NCBI GenBank assembly: GCA_947448725.1 | Contig: CANFOM010000006.1 | Location: 62,001-126,000, forward strand | From: Bacteroidota bacterium | GTDB taxonomy: Bacteria > Bacteroidota > Bacteroidia > Chitinophagales > Chitinophagaceae | DNA length: 64,000 bases | Direction: 5' to 3' | Shown: positions 1 to 58,514 of the stretch, one piece after another | How positions within the stretch are numbered: position 1 is the first letter of the stretch | Layout of the letters: each line of letters starts with the position of its first letter | Made by a program: the position numbers and the translations under genes | The notes under the pieces: generated by a model | What the model was told of the DNA's origin: nothing | The model's input: the letters and a program-made list of their open reading frames with translations, nothing else | Databases searched by the model: none

Positions 1-2073
1 AAAAAAGTTTCGTTGTGCCAATATTTTAGTGGAGAAATAACTCAAATTGATATTATTCGTATAACTTCTTTTTAAATCGGGATTACCAATGGTTTGATTG
101 TTAATATTACTTTGGTCCAACACTGGTTGTAATTGTGTTAAAGAGGGTTGATTGGTGGAAGTGCGGTAGTTAAATCTAAAATTTTGGGTTTGTGAAAAAT
201 TGTAAACAAAATTGGCAGATGGTAAGATGTCTTTAAAATCATGTTGAATTTTAGAATTGACACTGGTATTGATGCCATTTAACATGGCGTCTTGCAAAGA
301 AAATCCGGTTGAAAAATTATACTTTTTTTGATTATAACGAAAATTCATTCCGCCACCTGCGTAGGTATATTCGCTACTGTATTCGTTGGTTAGTCTTGTG
401 TTTAAAGCGTCATACAAATTATTAATGCCATTTTTATCATACACTTTTTTACTAGTAGACCCAATATTTTTATTGATGAAAGTATTAAACTCAAGTAAAG
501 ATTTTTTACCCAATGGTTCTGTATACACCAAATTGGCCGAATAGGATTCGGTTAGCCCTTTTCTACTGCTTTTTTGATCTAAAATTGAATCTTTTATAAC
601 ACCATAAGAATAAAATAACTGATCTGTGTATTGATTACTATTAGCACTTGAATTATTATACCCTTGTGTTATTGTGGAGGAAATGGTTCTGCCTTTTTTC
701 GTAAACTTTTTTCTAAGTAAGAGTGTGTTGCTAATATTCACCGCATCAGTAACACTAGCAGAATTGGTACTACTCGAATTGGTTAAAGTACCATCAGGCA
801 ATAAGGTACTACTCGAGGAAGCCCCTAAAGAAGTATTTTGTTGATTGGTGATACTTGGCGTGTACTTATAAGAAAAAGTTTCGGACACTTTATTGTCAAT
901 CGTAAATCCTATTTTTTGTTGTTGATTTCTATTGGTGTTATTGGATTCATTGCTGCGATTGAATAAATTACCCGGCGTTAAATTTTGAGTAAAGGAATTA
1001 GTTATGGTATTCCTCTCCACATCACTACTATTCGCATTGGCATTGAAATCCATTTTTTTATCATTCAATACATTGGAATAATTTCCACCCAATGAATAAG
1101 TATTGGCCACTCCCTGCGAGTTGGCATCCGTTCCGCCGCCACCCCCATTAAAATTAAGCATCATGCCTCCACCACCTCTTCCACCACCGCCCCCAGAAAA
1201 ATTAGCCATATCTCCATTAGAAAAAGCTTGACGATTGGTATTATTGGCAGTACCAATTAAGGAAAATTGTTCGTCATTATTAATCCGATTAATATTTCCT
1301 TGTGCATCAAATCGGCCTGGAGAACCTGCACTACCATTTATTTTTCCAAAAGTGGATTGTTTGCGGTCTTTTTTTGTTTTGATATTAATTGCAGTTTCTT
1401 CATTGCCATCATCAATGCCTGTAAACATCGCTTGATCTGATTTGCGATCATACACTTGAATTTTATCAACGGCATCTGCTGGTAAATTTTTAGTAGCCAT
1501 TTTAGGATCTCCTGTAAAAAATTCTTTTCCATTAACAAATACCTTGGTTACTGATTTCCCATTAACGGTAATAGCTCCAGCCTTATCTACTTCTACCCCT
1601 GGCATTTTTTTTAACATATCCTCCACTACTGCATTGGGTACTGTTTTAAAATTTTCAGAGTTAAATTCAATAGAGTCTCCATTAATCACCACTGGAGGCC
1701 TACGGGCCGTGACCGTTACCGTACTTACTTTGTTGGCATCTTCTAAATAAATATTATTTAAGTTAAGTGTAGGATTGGCGCCTGTTTTAAAAGCCACCCA
1801 TTGTTGTTGATAGCCTACATAGGAAATAGATAGCAAATATTTTCCGGCAGCTATGTTCTTTAGTACAAATCCGCCTTCCTCATTGCTTCTTGCAAAACTT
1901 ACCAAAGAAGAGTCTTTGGCACGAACCAGTGAAATGGTTGCATAGGGCAGCGTTCTTTTAGCTGAACTATCTAGGATAATGCCCTGCACTTGAAAATTTT
2001 GAGCAAAACCCACATAACTCATTAATAAGAAGCTAGTTATTGAGAATAATTTTTTGATACTTGTTTTTTTCAT
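1..2073 (-). CDS. Outer membrane beta-barrel receptor with carboxypeptidase-regulatory-like domain (partial)
   Basis: This gene is absent from the ORF track because it runs off the left edge; it reads open from an ATG at 2073 to base 1, giving 691 codons without a stop. It begins with a signal peptide (MKKTSIKKLFSITSFLLMS...GFAQ), then a CarboxypepD_reg-like domain (about residues 25-100), then a plug-like segment containing the PGVEVDKAGAITVNGK stretch, then Asn/Ser/Thr-rich barrel sequence. This is the layout of the outer membrane beta-barrel family related to TonB receptors (PF14905 type). The protein is inferred to sit in the outer membrane; substrate is unknown. An unusual glycine-rich loop lies near residues 290-315. 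It is transcribed away from the gene at 2245. The C-terminus is outside the window. Confidence 0.85.
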   Translation of the reverse strand, partial: MKKTSIKKLFSITSFLLMSYVGFAQNFQVQGIILDSSAKRTLPYATISLVRAKDSSLVSFARSNEEGGFVLKNIAAGKYLLSISYVGYQQQWVAFKTGANPTLNLNNIYLEDANKVSTVTVTARRPPVVINGDSIEFNSENFKTVPNAVVEDMLKKMPGVEVDKAGAITVNGKSVTKVFVNGKEFFTGDPKMATKNLPADAVDKIQVYDRKSDQAMFTGIDDGNEETAINIKTKKDRKQSTFGKINGSAGSPGRFDAQGNINRINNDEQFSLIGTANNTNRQAFSNGDMANFSGGGGGRGGGGMMLNFNGGGGGTDANSQGVANTYSLGGNYSNVLNDKKMDFNANANSSDVERNTITNSFTQNLTPGNLFNRSNESNNTNRNQQQKIGFTIDNKVSETFSYKYTPSITNQQNTSLGASSSSTLLPDGTLTNSSSTNSASVTDAVNISNTLLLRKKFTKKGRTISSTITQGYNNSSANSNQYTDQLFYSYGVIKDSILDQKSSRKGLTESYSANLVYTEPLGKKSLLEFNTFINKNIGSTSKKVYDKNGINNLYDALNTRLTNEYSSEYTYAGGGMNFRYNQKKYNFSTGFSLQDAMLNGINTSVNSKIQHDFKDILPSANFVYNFSQTQNFRFNYRTSTNQPSLTQLQPVLDQSNINNQTIGNPDLKRSYTNNINLSYFSTKILAQRNFF

Positions 2074-46342: not shown

Positions 46343-47767
46343 TTATAGTAGTAAACTAGTAGGTAGGGAGTAGTCTGTTAACTTAAATTGTTTAGACTCT
46401 TTTAATTCTTTAAACCCGCCTTTGATGTCTATTAAGTTTTTAAAGCCGCGGGCTTTTAAAATAGAGATAAAAATCATGGAACGATAGCCACCTGCACAAT
46501 GAACATAGTAGGTTTTATCTTTATCGATGGAAGCCATACTTTCATTGATAAAATCAAGTGGCGCATTTTGTGCTCCAATAATATGTTCGCTTTTAAATTC
46601 AGAAGCTTTTCTTACATCTAAAATTGTCATTGCAGCATCATTGGATTTAATAGCAACCAATGCTTGCGTATCTATAGAACTAATATGATCTATTTCTTTG
46701 CCTGCTTTTACCCAAGCTTCAAATCCGCCTTCTAAAAAGCCGATGGTATAATCATAACCTACGCGCGCTAATCTGGTAATAATTTCCATTGCTCTTCCTT
46801 CTTCAGCGACCAATAATATTTTTTGTTTGATGTCTGGTATCATGGCCCCTACCCATGGCGCAAAACTTCCATCTATGCCAATATTAATAGAATTGGGAAT
46901 AAATCCTTTTGCAAATGTTTGTGCATCGCGCGTATCTAAAATTAAGGCGCTGGTTTCATTGGCTGCTACTTCAAAAGCTGCAGCACTTAGTGCCTGCTGT
47001 CCTCTTTCCAACACCTGGTCAATACTTTCATAGCCTTGAATATTCATCATTACATTTAATGGGAAATAGCCAGGAGGCGCTACCAGCCCATCTAATACTG
47101 CCGTAATAAATTCTTCTTTACTTAATTTTGGATCCAATGCATAATTGGTTTGTTTTTGATGCCCTAAGGTATCTTGGGTTTCTGTACTCATTTTTTTTCC
47201 GCAAGCACTTCCCGCACCATGCGCTGGATAAATAACAATCGAATCTGACAATGGCATTATTTTATTTTGCAAGGAATCAAATAAATAACCTGCTAAAATT
47301 TCTTGTGTAAGTTCTGATTTTATTTTTTGTGCTAAGTCCGGGCGACCCACATCTCCAATAAATAAAGTATCGCCACTAAATAAGGCTGTTTCTTTCCCTT
47401 GCTCATCTATCAATAAATAACAAGTGCTTTCCATCGTATGGCCTGGTGTATGCAACACTTTTATTTTAACTTTTCCTAGTGTGATTTCTTCCCCATCTTT
47501 GGCGGCATAAAATTCAAAAGCTGGCGCAGCATTCGGACCATAAACAATTTTAGCCCCCGTTTTTTTAGCGAGGTCGATATGCCCCGAAACAAAATCAGCA
47601 TGGAAATGTGTCTCTAAAACATATTTAATTTTTGCTTTGTCCAAAGCCGCTTTATGGATATAAGGTTGCACTTCTCTTAGTGGGTCAATTATGGCCACTT
47701 CGCCATCACTCATAATATAATAGGCCCCTTGTGCCAAACATCCCGTATAAATTTGTTCTACTTTCAT
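46343..47767 (-). CDS. Persulfide dioxygenase fused to two rhodanese domains (CstB-like)
   Basis: A 474-residue protein. The N-terminal metallo-beta-lactamase fold has THFHADFVSGH, HTPGHTMES and SGDTLFIGDVGRPDL, the ETHE1/persulfide dioxygenase pattern. Two rhodanese-like domains follow: the first (LILDTRDAQTFAKG) lacks an active-site Cys (AEEGRA), the second has it (YVHCAGGYRS). The family oxidises or moves sulfane sulfur from persulfides. The ORF-track start is a TTG; the ATG at 47767 (MKVEQIYTG) is preferred. Divergent from the TauE/YeeE genes. Confidence 0.9.
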   Translation of the reverse strand: MKVEQIYTGCLAQGAYYIMSDGEVAIIDPLREVQPYIHKAALDKAKIKYVLETHFHADFVSGHIDLAKKTGAKIVYGPNAAPAFEFYAAKDGEEITLGKVKIKVLHTPGHTMESTCYLLIDEQGKETALFSGDTLFIGDVGRPDLAQKIKSELTQEILAGYLFDSLQNKIMPLSDSIVIYPAHGAGSACGKKMSTETQDTLGHQKQTNYALDPKLSKEEFITAVLDGLVAPPGYFPLNVMMNIQGYESIDQVLERGQQALSAAAFEVAANETSALILDTRDAQTFAKGFIPNSINIGIDGSFAPWVGAMIPDIKQKILLVAEEGRAMEIITRLARVGYDYTIGFLEGGFEAWVKAGKEIDHISSIDTQALVAIKSNDAAMTILDVRKASEFKSEHIIGAQNAPLDFINESMASIDKDKTYYVHCAGGYRSMIFISILKARGFKNLIDIKGGFKELKESKQFKLTDYSLPTSLLL

Positions 47768-47815
47768 AATTATCAATTAACCTTTCAAAGTTGCCTTATA
47801 AAATTAGCAAATACC

Positions 47816-47829
47816 GTGACAAAAATCAC
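47816..47829. promoter_or_regulatory. Crp/Fnr-like palindrome in the sulfur-module promoter
   Basis: GTGA-N6-TCAC (cgtgacaaaaatcact) matches the core spacing of Crp/Fnr-family operators. It lies between the divergent persulfide dioxygenase and TauE genes, about 50 bases upstream of the dioxygenase ATG. Confidence 0.4.
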
Positions 47830-47876
47830 TTTTAATAGAAAAATATAAATTTCTAATTGGATCCCTTAATAAAAAG

Positions 47877-47906
47877 CACTTAAGTGACAATTAGTACTTA
47901 AATTGT
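47877..47906. promoter_or_regulatory. Two adjoining palindromes upstream of the TauE gene
   Basis: CACTTAAGTG (47877-47886) is a perfect 10-base palindrome. It is followed by ACAATT-N8-AATTGT (47887-47906). They lie 36-66 bases before the TauE ATG and may be operator sites for a sulfur-responsive regulator, which is not encoded nearby. Confidence 0.4.
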
Positions 47907-47942
47907 AACTCGGTTTTCGGAGATTTGTTAAAAATTAATTAA

Positions 47943-48746
47943 ATGCATTTTCTAGGCTATCTCGCTTCAATACTTATCGGCATTTCTTTAGGGCTTATTG
48001 GGAGCGGAGGTTCCATTTTAACAGTTCCCGTATTGGTATATCTTTTTCAGGTTGAACCCTTACTAGCCACCACATATTCATTGTGTATTGTTGGCTTAAG
48101 TAGCATTGCTGGAGTTATTTCTCGATTAAAACAAAATTTAGTTGATTTTAAAACACTTTTTGTTTTTGGTATTCCTTCCATTGTTGGTGTCTTTTTAGCT
48201 AGAAAATTTTTACTGCCTAATATTCCAGAAGCTATGCATCTCACCAACAATATCCTGCTTACTAAAAGCCATTTTATTATGTTGTTTTTTGCTACCCTCA
48301 TGTTGGTATCTGCCTTGTCCATGATTATTGGAAAAAATAAAAAAGATCAAGAAGGGGTTATACCTATTTACGGATTTAGCTTGATGATTGTAGGATTCGG
48401 AGAAGGCTTATTAACCGGCATTGTTGGTGCAGGTGGTGGTTTTTTGATTATTCCAGCCCTAGTCATTTTAGCAAAATTGCCTATGAAAAAAGCAATCGCC
48501 TCCTCTTTGGTTATTATTAGTATTAAATCATTGGTTGGCTTTACAGGTGACTTATTCCATACGACTGTAGATTGGGCATTTTTATATAAAATTATTGTTT
48601 TAGCCACCCTCGGCATCATTACTGGCAATTACTTAAATAAGAAAATGGATGGGGCTAAGTTAAAAAAAGGATTTGGCGTATTTGTGCTTGGCATGTCCTT
48701 GTTCATTCTTATTGAACAATTTTTCTTTTCTAATTTAATCAAATAG
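47943..48746 (+). CDS. TauE/SafE family sulfite or sulfoacetate exporter
   Basis: A 267-residue membrane protein with eight or so membrane segments and the paired glycine-rich repeats of TauE/SafE: IGISLGLIGSGGSILTVPVL and EGLLTGIVGAGGGFLIIPALV. The family moves sulfite, sulfoacetate or other organosulfur anions. Its place beside the persulfide dioxygenase and YeeE genes suggests sulfite or thiosulfate handling. Confidence 0.88.
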   Translation: MHFLGYLASILIGISLGLIGSGGSILTVPVLVYLFQVEPLLATTYSLCIVGLSSIAGVISRLKQNLVDFKTLFVFGIPSIVGVFLARKFLLPNIPEAMHLTNNILLTKSHFIMLFFATLMLVSALSMIIGKNKKDQEGVIPIYGFSLMIVGFGEGLLTGIVGAGGGFLIIPALVILAKLPMKKAIASSLVIISIKSLVGFTGDLFHTTVDWAFLYKIIVLATLGIITGNYLNKKMDGAKLKKGFGVFVLGMSLFILIEQFFFSNLIK

Positions 48747-48752
48747 AACTTA

Positions 48753-48783
48753 TTGGGGAAATGATAGTAATCTACTATATTTG
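48753..48783 (+). promoter_or_regulatory. Promoter upstream of the YeeE/YedE pair
   Basis: A perfect -7 element TATATTTG at 48776-48783 has TTGG 19 bases upstream. The ATG at 48808 follows after 24 bases, so the YeeE pair may be transcribed from its own promoter as well as from the TauE unit. Confidence 0.5.
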
Positions 48784-48807
48784 TAGACTTATAAATATAG
48801 TTTTACT

Positions 48808-49383
48808 ATGAACGAACTCATCCAAACAATTTCTGCACCTTGGCCCTGGTATGTAGCTGGAACCCTAATAGGGCTTACAGTTCCCACTTTATTGATTATT
48901 GGGAATAAAACTTTTGGAATATCCTCCAATTTGCGTCATTTATGTGCCGCTTGTTTTCCTGCCAATATTACTTTTTTTAAATACGATTGGAAAAAGGAAA
49001 CTTGGAATCTATTTTTTGTTGTTGGTGTTATCATAGGTGCTTTTATTGCAACTCATTATTTATCCAACCCAACATTAATAAAAATCAATCCTGTCTTACA
49101 ACAAGAATTAGCCAAAGAGGGCATCACCGATTTTAAAAATTTATTACCTAAGGATCTTTTTAGTTTTGAAGCCCTTTTTACTTTAAGAGGTTTTATATTA
49201 ATGGTAGTAGGTGGATTTTTAGTAGGGTTTGGCACTAGATATGCCAATGGATGTACTTCGGGTCACTCTATCATGGGCTTAAGTAATTTACAATGGCCTT
49301 CCTTAGTAGCCACCATTTGTTTCATGATAGGAGGTTTTGTAATGACCAATTTTATATTGCCTTATATTTTACAATTAAAATAA
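48808..49383 (+). CDS. YeeE/YedE family sulfur-compound transporter, first subunit
   Basis: A 191-residue membrane protein with the characteristic [17 protein letters not shown] motif, in which the Cys is known in YeeE-type thiosulfate transporters to contact substrate. It is half the length of the full YeeE, the second half being encoded by the next gene 7 bases downstream. The pair probably imports thiosulfate or a related sulfur anion. Confidence 0.88.
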
Positions 49384-49390
49384 AATTATT

Positions 49391-49876
49391 ATGTCAGAGA
49401 ATAAAGAAATAACTAATTCAGATAAATCAATAGCACACAACAATTCTGCAAAAAAAGAAAATGGTAGAAGCTTAATTAAATACAGCTTGGTGGGCATTGT
49501 ATTTGGAATCGTTTTTGTAAAAGCAGAAATTATTTCTTGGTTTAGAATTCAAGAAATGTTTAAACTTCAAAGCTTTCATATGTATGGGGTCATTGGAACT
49601 GCGGTAGTAGTAGGTGCCCTATCTGTTGCACTCATCAAAAAATTTAAAATAAAAACTTTACAAAAAGAAGCCATCGTTATTACTAATAAACCCTTTACGA
49701 AAGGAAATATTTACGGAGGATTAGTTTTTGGTTTAGGTTGGGCTATGACAGGCGCCTGCCCTGGGCCATTGTTTGCTCAAATAGGCGCGGGTATTGGTTC
49801 TATAAGCATTGTGATAGTAAGTGCACTATTAGGCACTTGGACCTATGGCTATTTTAAAGAAAAGCTCCCACACTAA
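49391..49876 (+). CDS. YeeE/YedE family (DUF6691-type) second subunit
   Basis: A 161-residue protein with four membrane segments and the second Cys motif of the family, GLGWAMTGACPGPLFAQIGAG. With the preceding gene it forms the two-part YeeE/YedE transporter seen in many Bacteroidota next to MBL-rhodanese genes. The N-terminal 20 residues are polar and not a signal peptide. Confidence 0.87.
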   Translation: MSENKEITNSDKSIAHNNSAKKENGRSLIKYSLVGIVFGIVFVKAEIISWFRIQEMFKLQSFHMYGVIGTAVVVGALSVALIKKFKIKTLQKEAIVITNKPFTKGNIYGGLVFGLGWAMTGACPGPLFAQIGAGIGSISIVIVSALLGTWTYGYFKEKLPH

Positions 49877-57728: not shown

Positions 57729-58301
57729 ATGGAAACAATAGATATTGCCGGAAGCATTGGTTTAATAGCCATGTTGCTTTTAACTGTAAACATTATCATG
57801 GGTATAGGGATTAGTACTTCCTATAAAAAAACTTCGATTTGGCAAAAATTGCCTCCAAAAGTAAAAGCCATTAAATTAATTGACCTACACAACTACACTG
57901 CCTATATAGCATTGGGCTTGGTCTTGGTCCACTTTCTAATCATTCCATTGGACCCCAGCTCAAAATTTTCCTATACGCATTTAATTCAACCATGGACAGC
58001 CCCTCATCAAGCCTTATTTGTAACGATTGGGGTTATTTCATTTTTAGCTTTATTAGTGGTTATTATTACCACACAGAAAGTCATTAAAAAGAAAATAGGA
58101 ACGCGTACTTGGAAAAATATACATGTCATTTCCTATGGTACAGGGCTTTTATTTATTGTGCATGGACTCGTAATGGATCCCTTATTAAAAGATAGGCCCA
58201 TAGATTTTATCGATCCTGAAAAAATATTAGTTGAAATTTGTGCCCTACTTTTAATAATGGCCTTTGTATATAGATATCAATACAAAAAAAATAGTAAATA
58301 A
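57729..58301 (+). CDS. Ferric-reductase-like membrane heme protein
   Basis: A 190-residue protein with five membrane segments and two histidine pairs: DLHNYTAYIALGLVLVHFLI and NIHVISYGTGLLFIVHGLV. The His-x13-His and His-x12-His spacing is that of b-type heme ligands in ferric reductase-like transmembrane domains. No flavin or NAD domain is attached. Its position divergent from ApbE/thioredoxin suggests electron transfer from the quinone pool to a flavinylated protein, which is inference. Confidence 0.75.
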   Translation: METIDIAGSIGLIAMLLLTVNIIMGIGISTSYKKTSIWQKLPPKVKAIKLIDLHNYTAYIALGLVLVHFLIIPLDPSSKFSYTHLIQPWTAPHQALFVTIGVISFLALLVVIITTQKVIKKKIGTRTWKNIHVISYGTGLLFIVHGLVMDPLLKDRPIDFIDPEKILVEICALLLIMAFVYRYQYKKNSK

Positions 58302-58329
58302 AAAAAAGGGCAGTGTAGAAACACCGCCC
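58300..58329 (-). terminator. Rho-independent terminator of the tRNA-Cys transcript
   Basis: On the minus strand GGGCGGTGT-TTCT-ACACTGCCC (9-bp stem with one G-T pair, 4-base loop) is followed by a run of seven T. It lies 26 bases after the tRNA 3' end and shows that the tRNA is a real transcription unit. Confidence 0.9.
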
Positions 58330-58354
58330 CGTATAACGATTGCCTGCATAGGAG

Positions 58355-58425
58355 CTGTCATAGATGGATTTGAACCATCGTTAAGGGTTTTGCTGACCCT
58401 TGCCTCGCCACTCGGCCACATGACA
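58355..58425 (-). tRNA. tRNA-Cys (anticodon GCA) with A at position 33
   Basis: A 71-base cloverleaf on the minus strand folds without gaps: acceptor TGTCATG/TATGACA, D-arm GCCGAGTGGCGAGGC, anticodon arm AGGGT-CAGCAAA-ACCCT, variable loop TAAC, T-arm GATGG-TTCAAAT-CCATC. U8, A14, G18G19, U54U55C56 and A58 are all present. The loop CAGCAAA gives anticodon GCA but has A33 where nearly all tRNAs have U33, and the discriminator base is G rather than the U73 typical of tRNA-Cys. CCA is not encoded. It has its own promoter and terminator. Confidence 0.8.
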
Positions 58426-58459
58426 ATATTTTTATAATAAAGGATGCTTGTTGATAAAA

Positions 58460-58471: not shown

Positions 58472-58514
58472 ATTAAAATATAAGTCTACTAATTTTATAG
58501 ACTTATATTTTAAT
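58472..58514. repeat. 17-bp perfect inverted repeat upstream of the tRNA gene
   Basis: ATTAAAATATAAGTCTA (58472-58488) and TAGACTTATATTTTAAT (58498-58514) are perfectly complementary with a 9-base spacer. The repeat covers the -33 region of the tRNA promoter and sits between divergent transcription units (tRNA and outer membrane protein). It could be an operator, a cruciform or a relic of a mobile element. The rest of the gap 58515-58653 shows nothing I can name. Confidence 0.75.

Follow-up and report, generated by a model that had tools for sequence, protein, structure and literature searches.

A tRNA-Cys-like gene beside a normal one

The window, i.e. the entire 64,000-nucleotide stretch of DNA analyzed here, encodes on its minus strand a tRNA-Cys-like RNA domain with a cloverleaf fold (58355-58425), recovered by reading of the sequence, ARAGORN (tRNA-Cys gca, 58354-58425), Rfam (RF00005, 58355-58425, 52 bits against a cut-off of 29) and RNA folding (-23.3 kcal/mol, z -3.0 relative to shuffled sequences). 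Every stem is paired, U8, A14, G18G19 and TTC are intact, and a GCA anticodon occupies 58393-58391. In fold, anticodon and the sequences of the D- and T-arms the gene is comparable to canonical bacterial tRNA-Cys (GCA), and RNA-gene annotation software labels it as an ordinary tRNA-Cys. Unlike a decoding tRNA-Cys, it has A33 (58394, T on the plus strand; C32 at 58395) in place of U33, G73 (58355) in place of U73, and U1-A72 (58425 and 58356) as the pair 1-72. The preliminary description, which had read a non-canonical tRNA-Cys(GCA) with A33 and an atypical discriminator base at this position, is thereby borne out.

On the same strand, the gene is preceded by a predicted -7 promoter element, TATCTTTG (58467-58460), which we take to conform to the Bacteroidota-type -7 consensus, and by a putative palindromic operator, AGTCTATAAAATTAGTAGACT (58483-58503), which overlaps the -33 region. 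A 5' leader (58426-58459) follows the promoter. Downstream of the tRNA lies a conserved trailer, GCAAGCAATCG, represented in the window by GCAGGCAATCGTTA (58334-58347; clade consensus GCAAGCAATCGTTAA), and then an intrinsic terminator (58300-58330) comprising a 10-bp hairpin with a UUCU loop and a U-run. The terminator folds with a z of -4.5 relative to shuffled sequences and its stem covaries between species, with two-sided changes in 5 of the 9 pairs around the UUCU-type loop.

The genome of origin (G000; 2.32 Mb in 38 contigs, about 95% complete), which belongs to a freshwater bacterium, additionally encodes a normal tRNA-Cys(GCA) with U33, G1-C72 and U73 (L018, G000:C10:28494-28564), i.e. 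the further copy for which the preliminary description had proposed to look. There is one CysRS gene, and a search of this genome for a second CysRS as a partner of the altered tRNA recovered none beyond it. At least two tRNA-Cys-like genes are present in each of 14 genomes examined, and all 12 Chitinophagaceae among these have a copy with the normal set of bases; two loci of G705 were read off-register in this survey, leaving that genome unchecked there. As the label "normal" is defined by U33, U73 and G1-C72 themselves, the invariance of these bases among normal copies is a matter of definition, while the per-genome result is meaningful. Judged by sequence, the canonical tRNA-Cys is clearly the parent of the second copy. 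In a single genome (G393, g27; L216, L251), tRNA-Cys-like genes number as many as five, and G33 is found in two of these.

Second tRNA-Cys copies across Chitinophagaceae

A 71-mer identical to the window tRNA is found in another species (L028, G020), and A33 copies with 87-94% identity occur in 14 further genomes of the same genus, a recurrence that chance does not explain. When 84,980 species genomes were scanned with the A33 pattern, 62 matches were returned, of which 41 are orthologues of the window gene in Sediminibacterium-type contigs (the genus being Sediminibacterium in the sense of GTDB, within Chitinophagaceae, with many records being MAGs and the counts including related species), one, in 'Flavobacteriia bacterium 40-80' (L104), is an A33/G73 copy distinct from these, and 20 are unrelated sequences devoid of a cloverleaf. 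All 21 distinct aligned tRNA sequences of the A33 clade share the loop CAGCAAA. In this clade, 97% of the stem cells are paired, with pair 1-72, one of 20, explaining most of the failures.

These observations bear on the idea that the gene is a decaying duplicate or a product of misassembly. Decay would be expected to remove U33 and U73, and one member of the wider family (L190) indeed looks decayed. Nevertheless, the same base is seen in 41 contigs from independent assemblies, a single pair accounts for most unpaired cells, and promoter, operator and terminator are conserved and covary, which leaves this explanation scarcely credible. The assembly error entertained in the preliminary description is thus excluded, while its view that a gene with its own promoter and terminator is not a decaying copy finds support in the conservation of the A33 form. 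Its caveat that A33 might be ordinary in all relatives applies only partially: A33 characterizes the second paralog within a clade and never occurs in the normal copy that accompanies it. Three further possibilities were rejected, namely a phage origin (the A33 pattern has no match among viral contigs), a shifted anticodon frame with U31 serving as U33 (L031 has C31 and an identical loop), and a conserved genomic neighborhood (the locus varies between subclades). The L104 copy (858-928, minus strand), which has neither terminator nor trailer, follows a ThiS/MoeB-like gene and immediately precedes a peroxiredoxin-like gene.

Other Sediminibacterium have orthologues with U33 or G33 (L043-L050, L141-L160), and a model of the tRNA plus trailer recovers the second copy in other genera of Chitinophagaceae. 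Apart from U33 forms, the anticodon loops of these copies include types with A33 (CAGCAAA, TAGCAAA), G33 (CGGCAAA, TGGCAAA, TGGCAAG) and C33 (CCGCAAA, TCGCAAA, ACGCAAG). A pattern admitting any base except U at position 33 matched in 12 of 396 genomes from the order, every one a member of this family (8 genera), and in 4 of 395 from the class, including two that belong to another family (f44). The latter two (L304, L305; g241) are C33 tRNA-Cys genes with a shortened D-loop, in tandem with a normal gene.

In a set of 84 distinct second copies, 25 have A at position 33, 41 have U, 8 have G and 10 have C; at position 73, 39 have G, 35 have U, 8 have A and 2 have C, while U8, A14, G18G19, T54, T55, C56 and A58 are invariant. 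The pair 1-72 is often broken, and the contacts of the L-shape stay. The family spans a series of forms. Several members (L152-L154, L203, L210, L222) still have U33, U73 and G1-C72 and could still be working in translation; an early type retains U73 along with A1.G72. At the other extreme, the anticodon is deleted in L274 (g99) and the anticodon arm is missing in L190 (G060), both of which retain the trailer and hairpin. The near-universal GCA anticodon is to be read with the proviso that GCA was required in most scans, so that its retention is overstated.

Two explanations would keep these RNAs in contact with cysteine. In the first, the second copy is a spare decoding tRNA-Cys, induced upon shortage of sulfur amino acids and tolerating A33 and G73. 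The intact cloverleaf and GCA, and the full normal determinant set of L152-L154 and L210, are in keeping with it, but positions 33 and 73 each drift through all four bases, which ordinary decoding and charging forbid, and a normal copy is always there in the genomes surveyed; we consider it quite unlikely. The main rival is a non-translational cysteine donor, which would be charged, kept off EF-Tu and the ribosome, and pass its cysteine to a tRNA-dependent transferase, e.g. for lipid or cell-wall work. A weak or broken 1-72 pair and the lack of U33 would suit such an RNA, as would the retention of GCA, the early type with U73 and A1.G72, the operonic linkage to a fatty-acid-hydroxylase-like (PF04116) gene in g25, g32, g52, g94 and other genera, and sulfur regulation, which would fit cysteine supply. 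Together with GCA, U73 is a major determinant for CysRS (PMC9976931), and in many genera, as well as in the clade of the window gene, this main determinant has given way to G or A. In addition, the anticodon is deleted in L274 and L190 and G000 has a single CysRS. The donor explanation fits the early A1.G72/U73 type and not the type seen in the window, and is on the whole unlikely.

Putative sulfur-linked control and the shared 3' module

The putative operator has the form AGTCTA-N9-TAGACT. When up to 2 mismatches are allowed in its 12 positions, 63 of 107 second copies have it no more than 300 nt away, as against none of 42 normal copies; since the copies are related, these figures are to be taken as a contrast rather than as a test on independent samples. 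In several genera there is no palindrome close to the second tRNA-Cys. Where the tRNA lies behind another ORF, the palindrome often precedes that ORF, either in its exact form (L206, L208, L218, L221) or with one to two mismatches before the co-transcribed ORF (L207, L211, L212, L214, L329).

Elsewhere the palindrome is linked to genes of sulfur metabolism. The pattern is a rare one: G000 has two exact sites, one at the window tRNA and the other upstream of metY (identified by TIGR01326), the latter accompanied by a partner site with one mismatch. In the window itself, a copy with one mismatch (48769-48789, plus strand) lies 19 nt before a YeeE/YedE-type sulfur-transport gene (Sulf_transp, PF04143; 48808-49383, plus strand) and is kept before the orthologue in L117; a second Sulf_transp gene follows at 49391-49876. 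In L221, a gene for O-succinylhomoserine sulfhydrylase begins 179 nt downstream of the second copy. The sulfur cluster of the window (46499-49876) comprises a rhodanese/MBL-fold protein, a TauE-type exporter and the two Sulf_transp genes along with the palindrome at 48769-48789.

Six sister loci (L028, L035, L042, L065, L120, L123) have a SAM-I/IV riboswitch (RF01725) above the Rfam gathering cut-off in their leaders. It shares the strand of the tRNA, lies 24-85 nt ahead of it and is itself preceded by the same operator and promoter. The core motif of this riboswitch is found at 13 second copies and at no normal copy. This class of riboswitch usually stands before protein-coding genes, whereas in these loci it is followed by a tRNA-like RNA as the next conserved element. 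The leader of the window gene has no Rfam match to it; alignment with L028 places its first half on the 5' end of that sister leader, more precisely on the first ~20 nt of the aptamer, and it further aligns with the end of the L028 spacer. It therefore looks like the remnant of a SAM-I/IV riboswitch with a deleted aptamer core. In L028, L035, L040, L065, L072, L120 and L123, short ORFs of about 6-24 codons extend from just after the aptamer to before the tRNA. Their sequences are not conserved, and they are possibly part of the switch mechanism.

At the 3' end, the trailer/terminator module is not present behind normal tRNA-Cys genes. It is equally not a private feature of this tRNA gene, as the module also ends other transcripts: a model of GCAAGCAATCG plus the UUCU-loop terminator finds it several times per genome (L192-L200, L231-L250), with sites downstream of amt genes and of a gene for a PLP aminotransferase, as well as in an intergenic RNA that precedes a prephenate dehydratase gene (names not given by Pfam being read from the sequence). 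Thus, GCAAGCAATCG and the terminator are a shared 3' module. Some Sediminibacterium (L142-L150) keep the tRNA and are missing the trailer; from this and the presence of the module behind unrelated genes, it follows that the trailer need not be a seed region. Base-pairing between the trailer and the T-arm (TTAACGAT with ATCGTTA) was considered and rejected, the pairing being lost in L039, L063 and the U33 members.

The same data speak to the explanation that the trailer RNA, i.e. GCAAGCAATCG and the terminator, is the sole functional part, with the tRNA as a drifting leader for processing or stability. It would account for L190 and L274, which have lost the anticodon part and kept trailer and hairpin, and for the recurrence of the module at the end of other transcripts. 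Yet conservation of the tRNA's stems and tertiary contacts is strong in the A33 clade and there are clades with the tRNA and no trailer, making this explanation improbable to a high degree.

A candidate regulatory RNA, its precedents and its neighbors

By the sequence evidence, the constraints on U33 and U73 have been lifted many times in the second copies while the fold, trailer, terminator and putative control elements are kept, for which a regulatory RNA offers the most economical reading. As two independent cis elements, the operator and the riboswitch would tie its expression to methionine/SAM and sulfur. Hence, the window gene probably specifies a non-coding regulatory RNA that arose from a duplicated tRNA-Cys and belongs to a methionine/SAM (sulfur amino acid) regulon. 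The preliminary description had rightly counted a regulatory tRNA among its options, and a regulatory role for a pseudo-tRNA is the one that the comparative evidence favors. It had overlooked the 3' trailer module, the palindrome in common with metY and a sulfur transporter, and the SAM riboswitch of the sister species. The broader proposition, that Chitinophagaceae as a family possess tRNA-Cys-derived regulatory RNAs under the control of a methionine/sulfur operator, joined in some species by a SAM riboswitch in cis, with the pseudo-tRNA tuning the sulfur amino acid economy free of decoding and charging, is one that we hold to be evenly balanced. Against the regulatory reading is the almost constant retention of GCA, which is needless for a pure scaffold and is in part a search bias. 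The members with U33, U73 and G1-C72, the missing trailer of L142-L150, the occurrence of the 3' module behind unrelated genes and the genera with no palindrome nearby likewise count against it.

Mechanistically, transcription would start from the promoter overlapped by the palindromic operator, with the SAM-I/IV riboswitch acting in the leader in some sister species, and the predicted transcript would comprise the tRNA-like domain and the conserved trailer and stop at the terminator. Going by the usual behavior of such switches, the RNA would be made at low SAM, with operator and riboswitch raising its level when SAM or methionine is scarce. The tRNA fold may then serve as a stable body, processed by RNase P and RNase Z, that is neither a decoder nor a cysteine acceptor. 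The RNA, probably via its trailer, might regulate genes or titrate a factor that binds tRNA-Cys, such that the use of sulfur amino acids is adjusted. If this is true, tRNA genes can be repeatedly remade into metabolite-controlled regulatory RNAs, and the lost U33 and discriminator base would be a legible mark by which any genome could be screened for such genes. The natural series from normal-looking to anticodon-less members offers a means of testing which parts of a tRNA work in translation and which have other uses, and a conserved, putatively sulfur-linked operator is brought to light in a poorly studied phylum.

A literature search, with most subscription journals outside its scope, found no paper on this tRNA-Cys-derived RNA family. 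The nearest precedent, comparable but unrelated, is tRNA-Other of Bacillus cereus, an iron-responsive pseudo-tRNA within a larger RNA with putative Fur sites, known only in the B. cereus group (PMC3399842). tRNA-Other is a tRNA-like, non-translational element in a longer RNA with expression tied to a metabolic regulator, and the same is predicted for the present RNA. They differ in that the parent here is tRNA-Cys and a methionine/SAM-type operator and riboswitch would exert the control instead of iron and Fur, as well as in phylum, origin and the spread of the present RNAs over a whole family. From canonical tRNA-Cys these RNAs are likewise set apart by more than the loss of U33, U73 and often G1-C72, namely by the extra 3' module and the sulfur-type control. 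Riboswitch-gated small RNAs are exemplified by the B12-controlled Rli55/EutX, where a metabolite switch similarly precedes a non-coding RNA; ligand and organisms differ and no shared sequence is known. The 3'ETS-leuZ of E. coli is a functional RNA cut from the trailer of a tRNA transcript, whereas here the tRNA itself is altered; again, the organisms differ and no shared sequence is known. The non-proteinogenic tRNA-Gly of staphylococci is a duplicated tRNA that was diverted from translation and is still chargeable by GlyRS, in contrast to the window clade, which has lost the main CysRS determinant.

Two types of genes recur at the 5' side of the second tRNA-Cys. In several genera, a fatty-acid-hydroxylase (PF04116) gene lies co-oriented directly upstream (the gene being recorded at L207, L212, L213, L228, L229, L293, L295, L297, L303 and L340). 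The version in L228 has a weak OlsE-like NCBIfam match, and in G398 (L340) the gene stands behind the palindrome without the tRNA. In several other genera the equivalent position, just upstream on the same strand, is occupied by a small gene for a CarboxypepD_reg-like protein of about 100 aa (L206, L208, L214, L216, L218, L221, L329).
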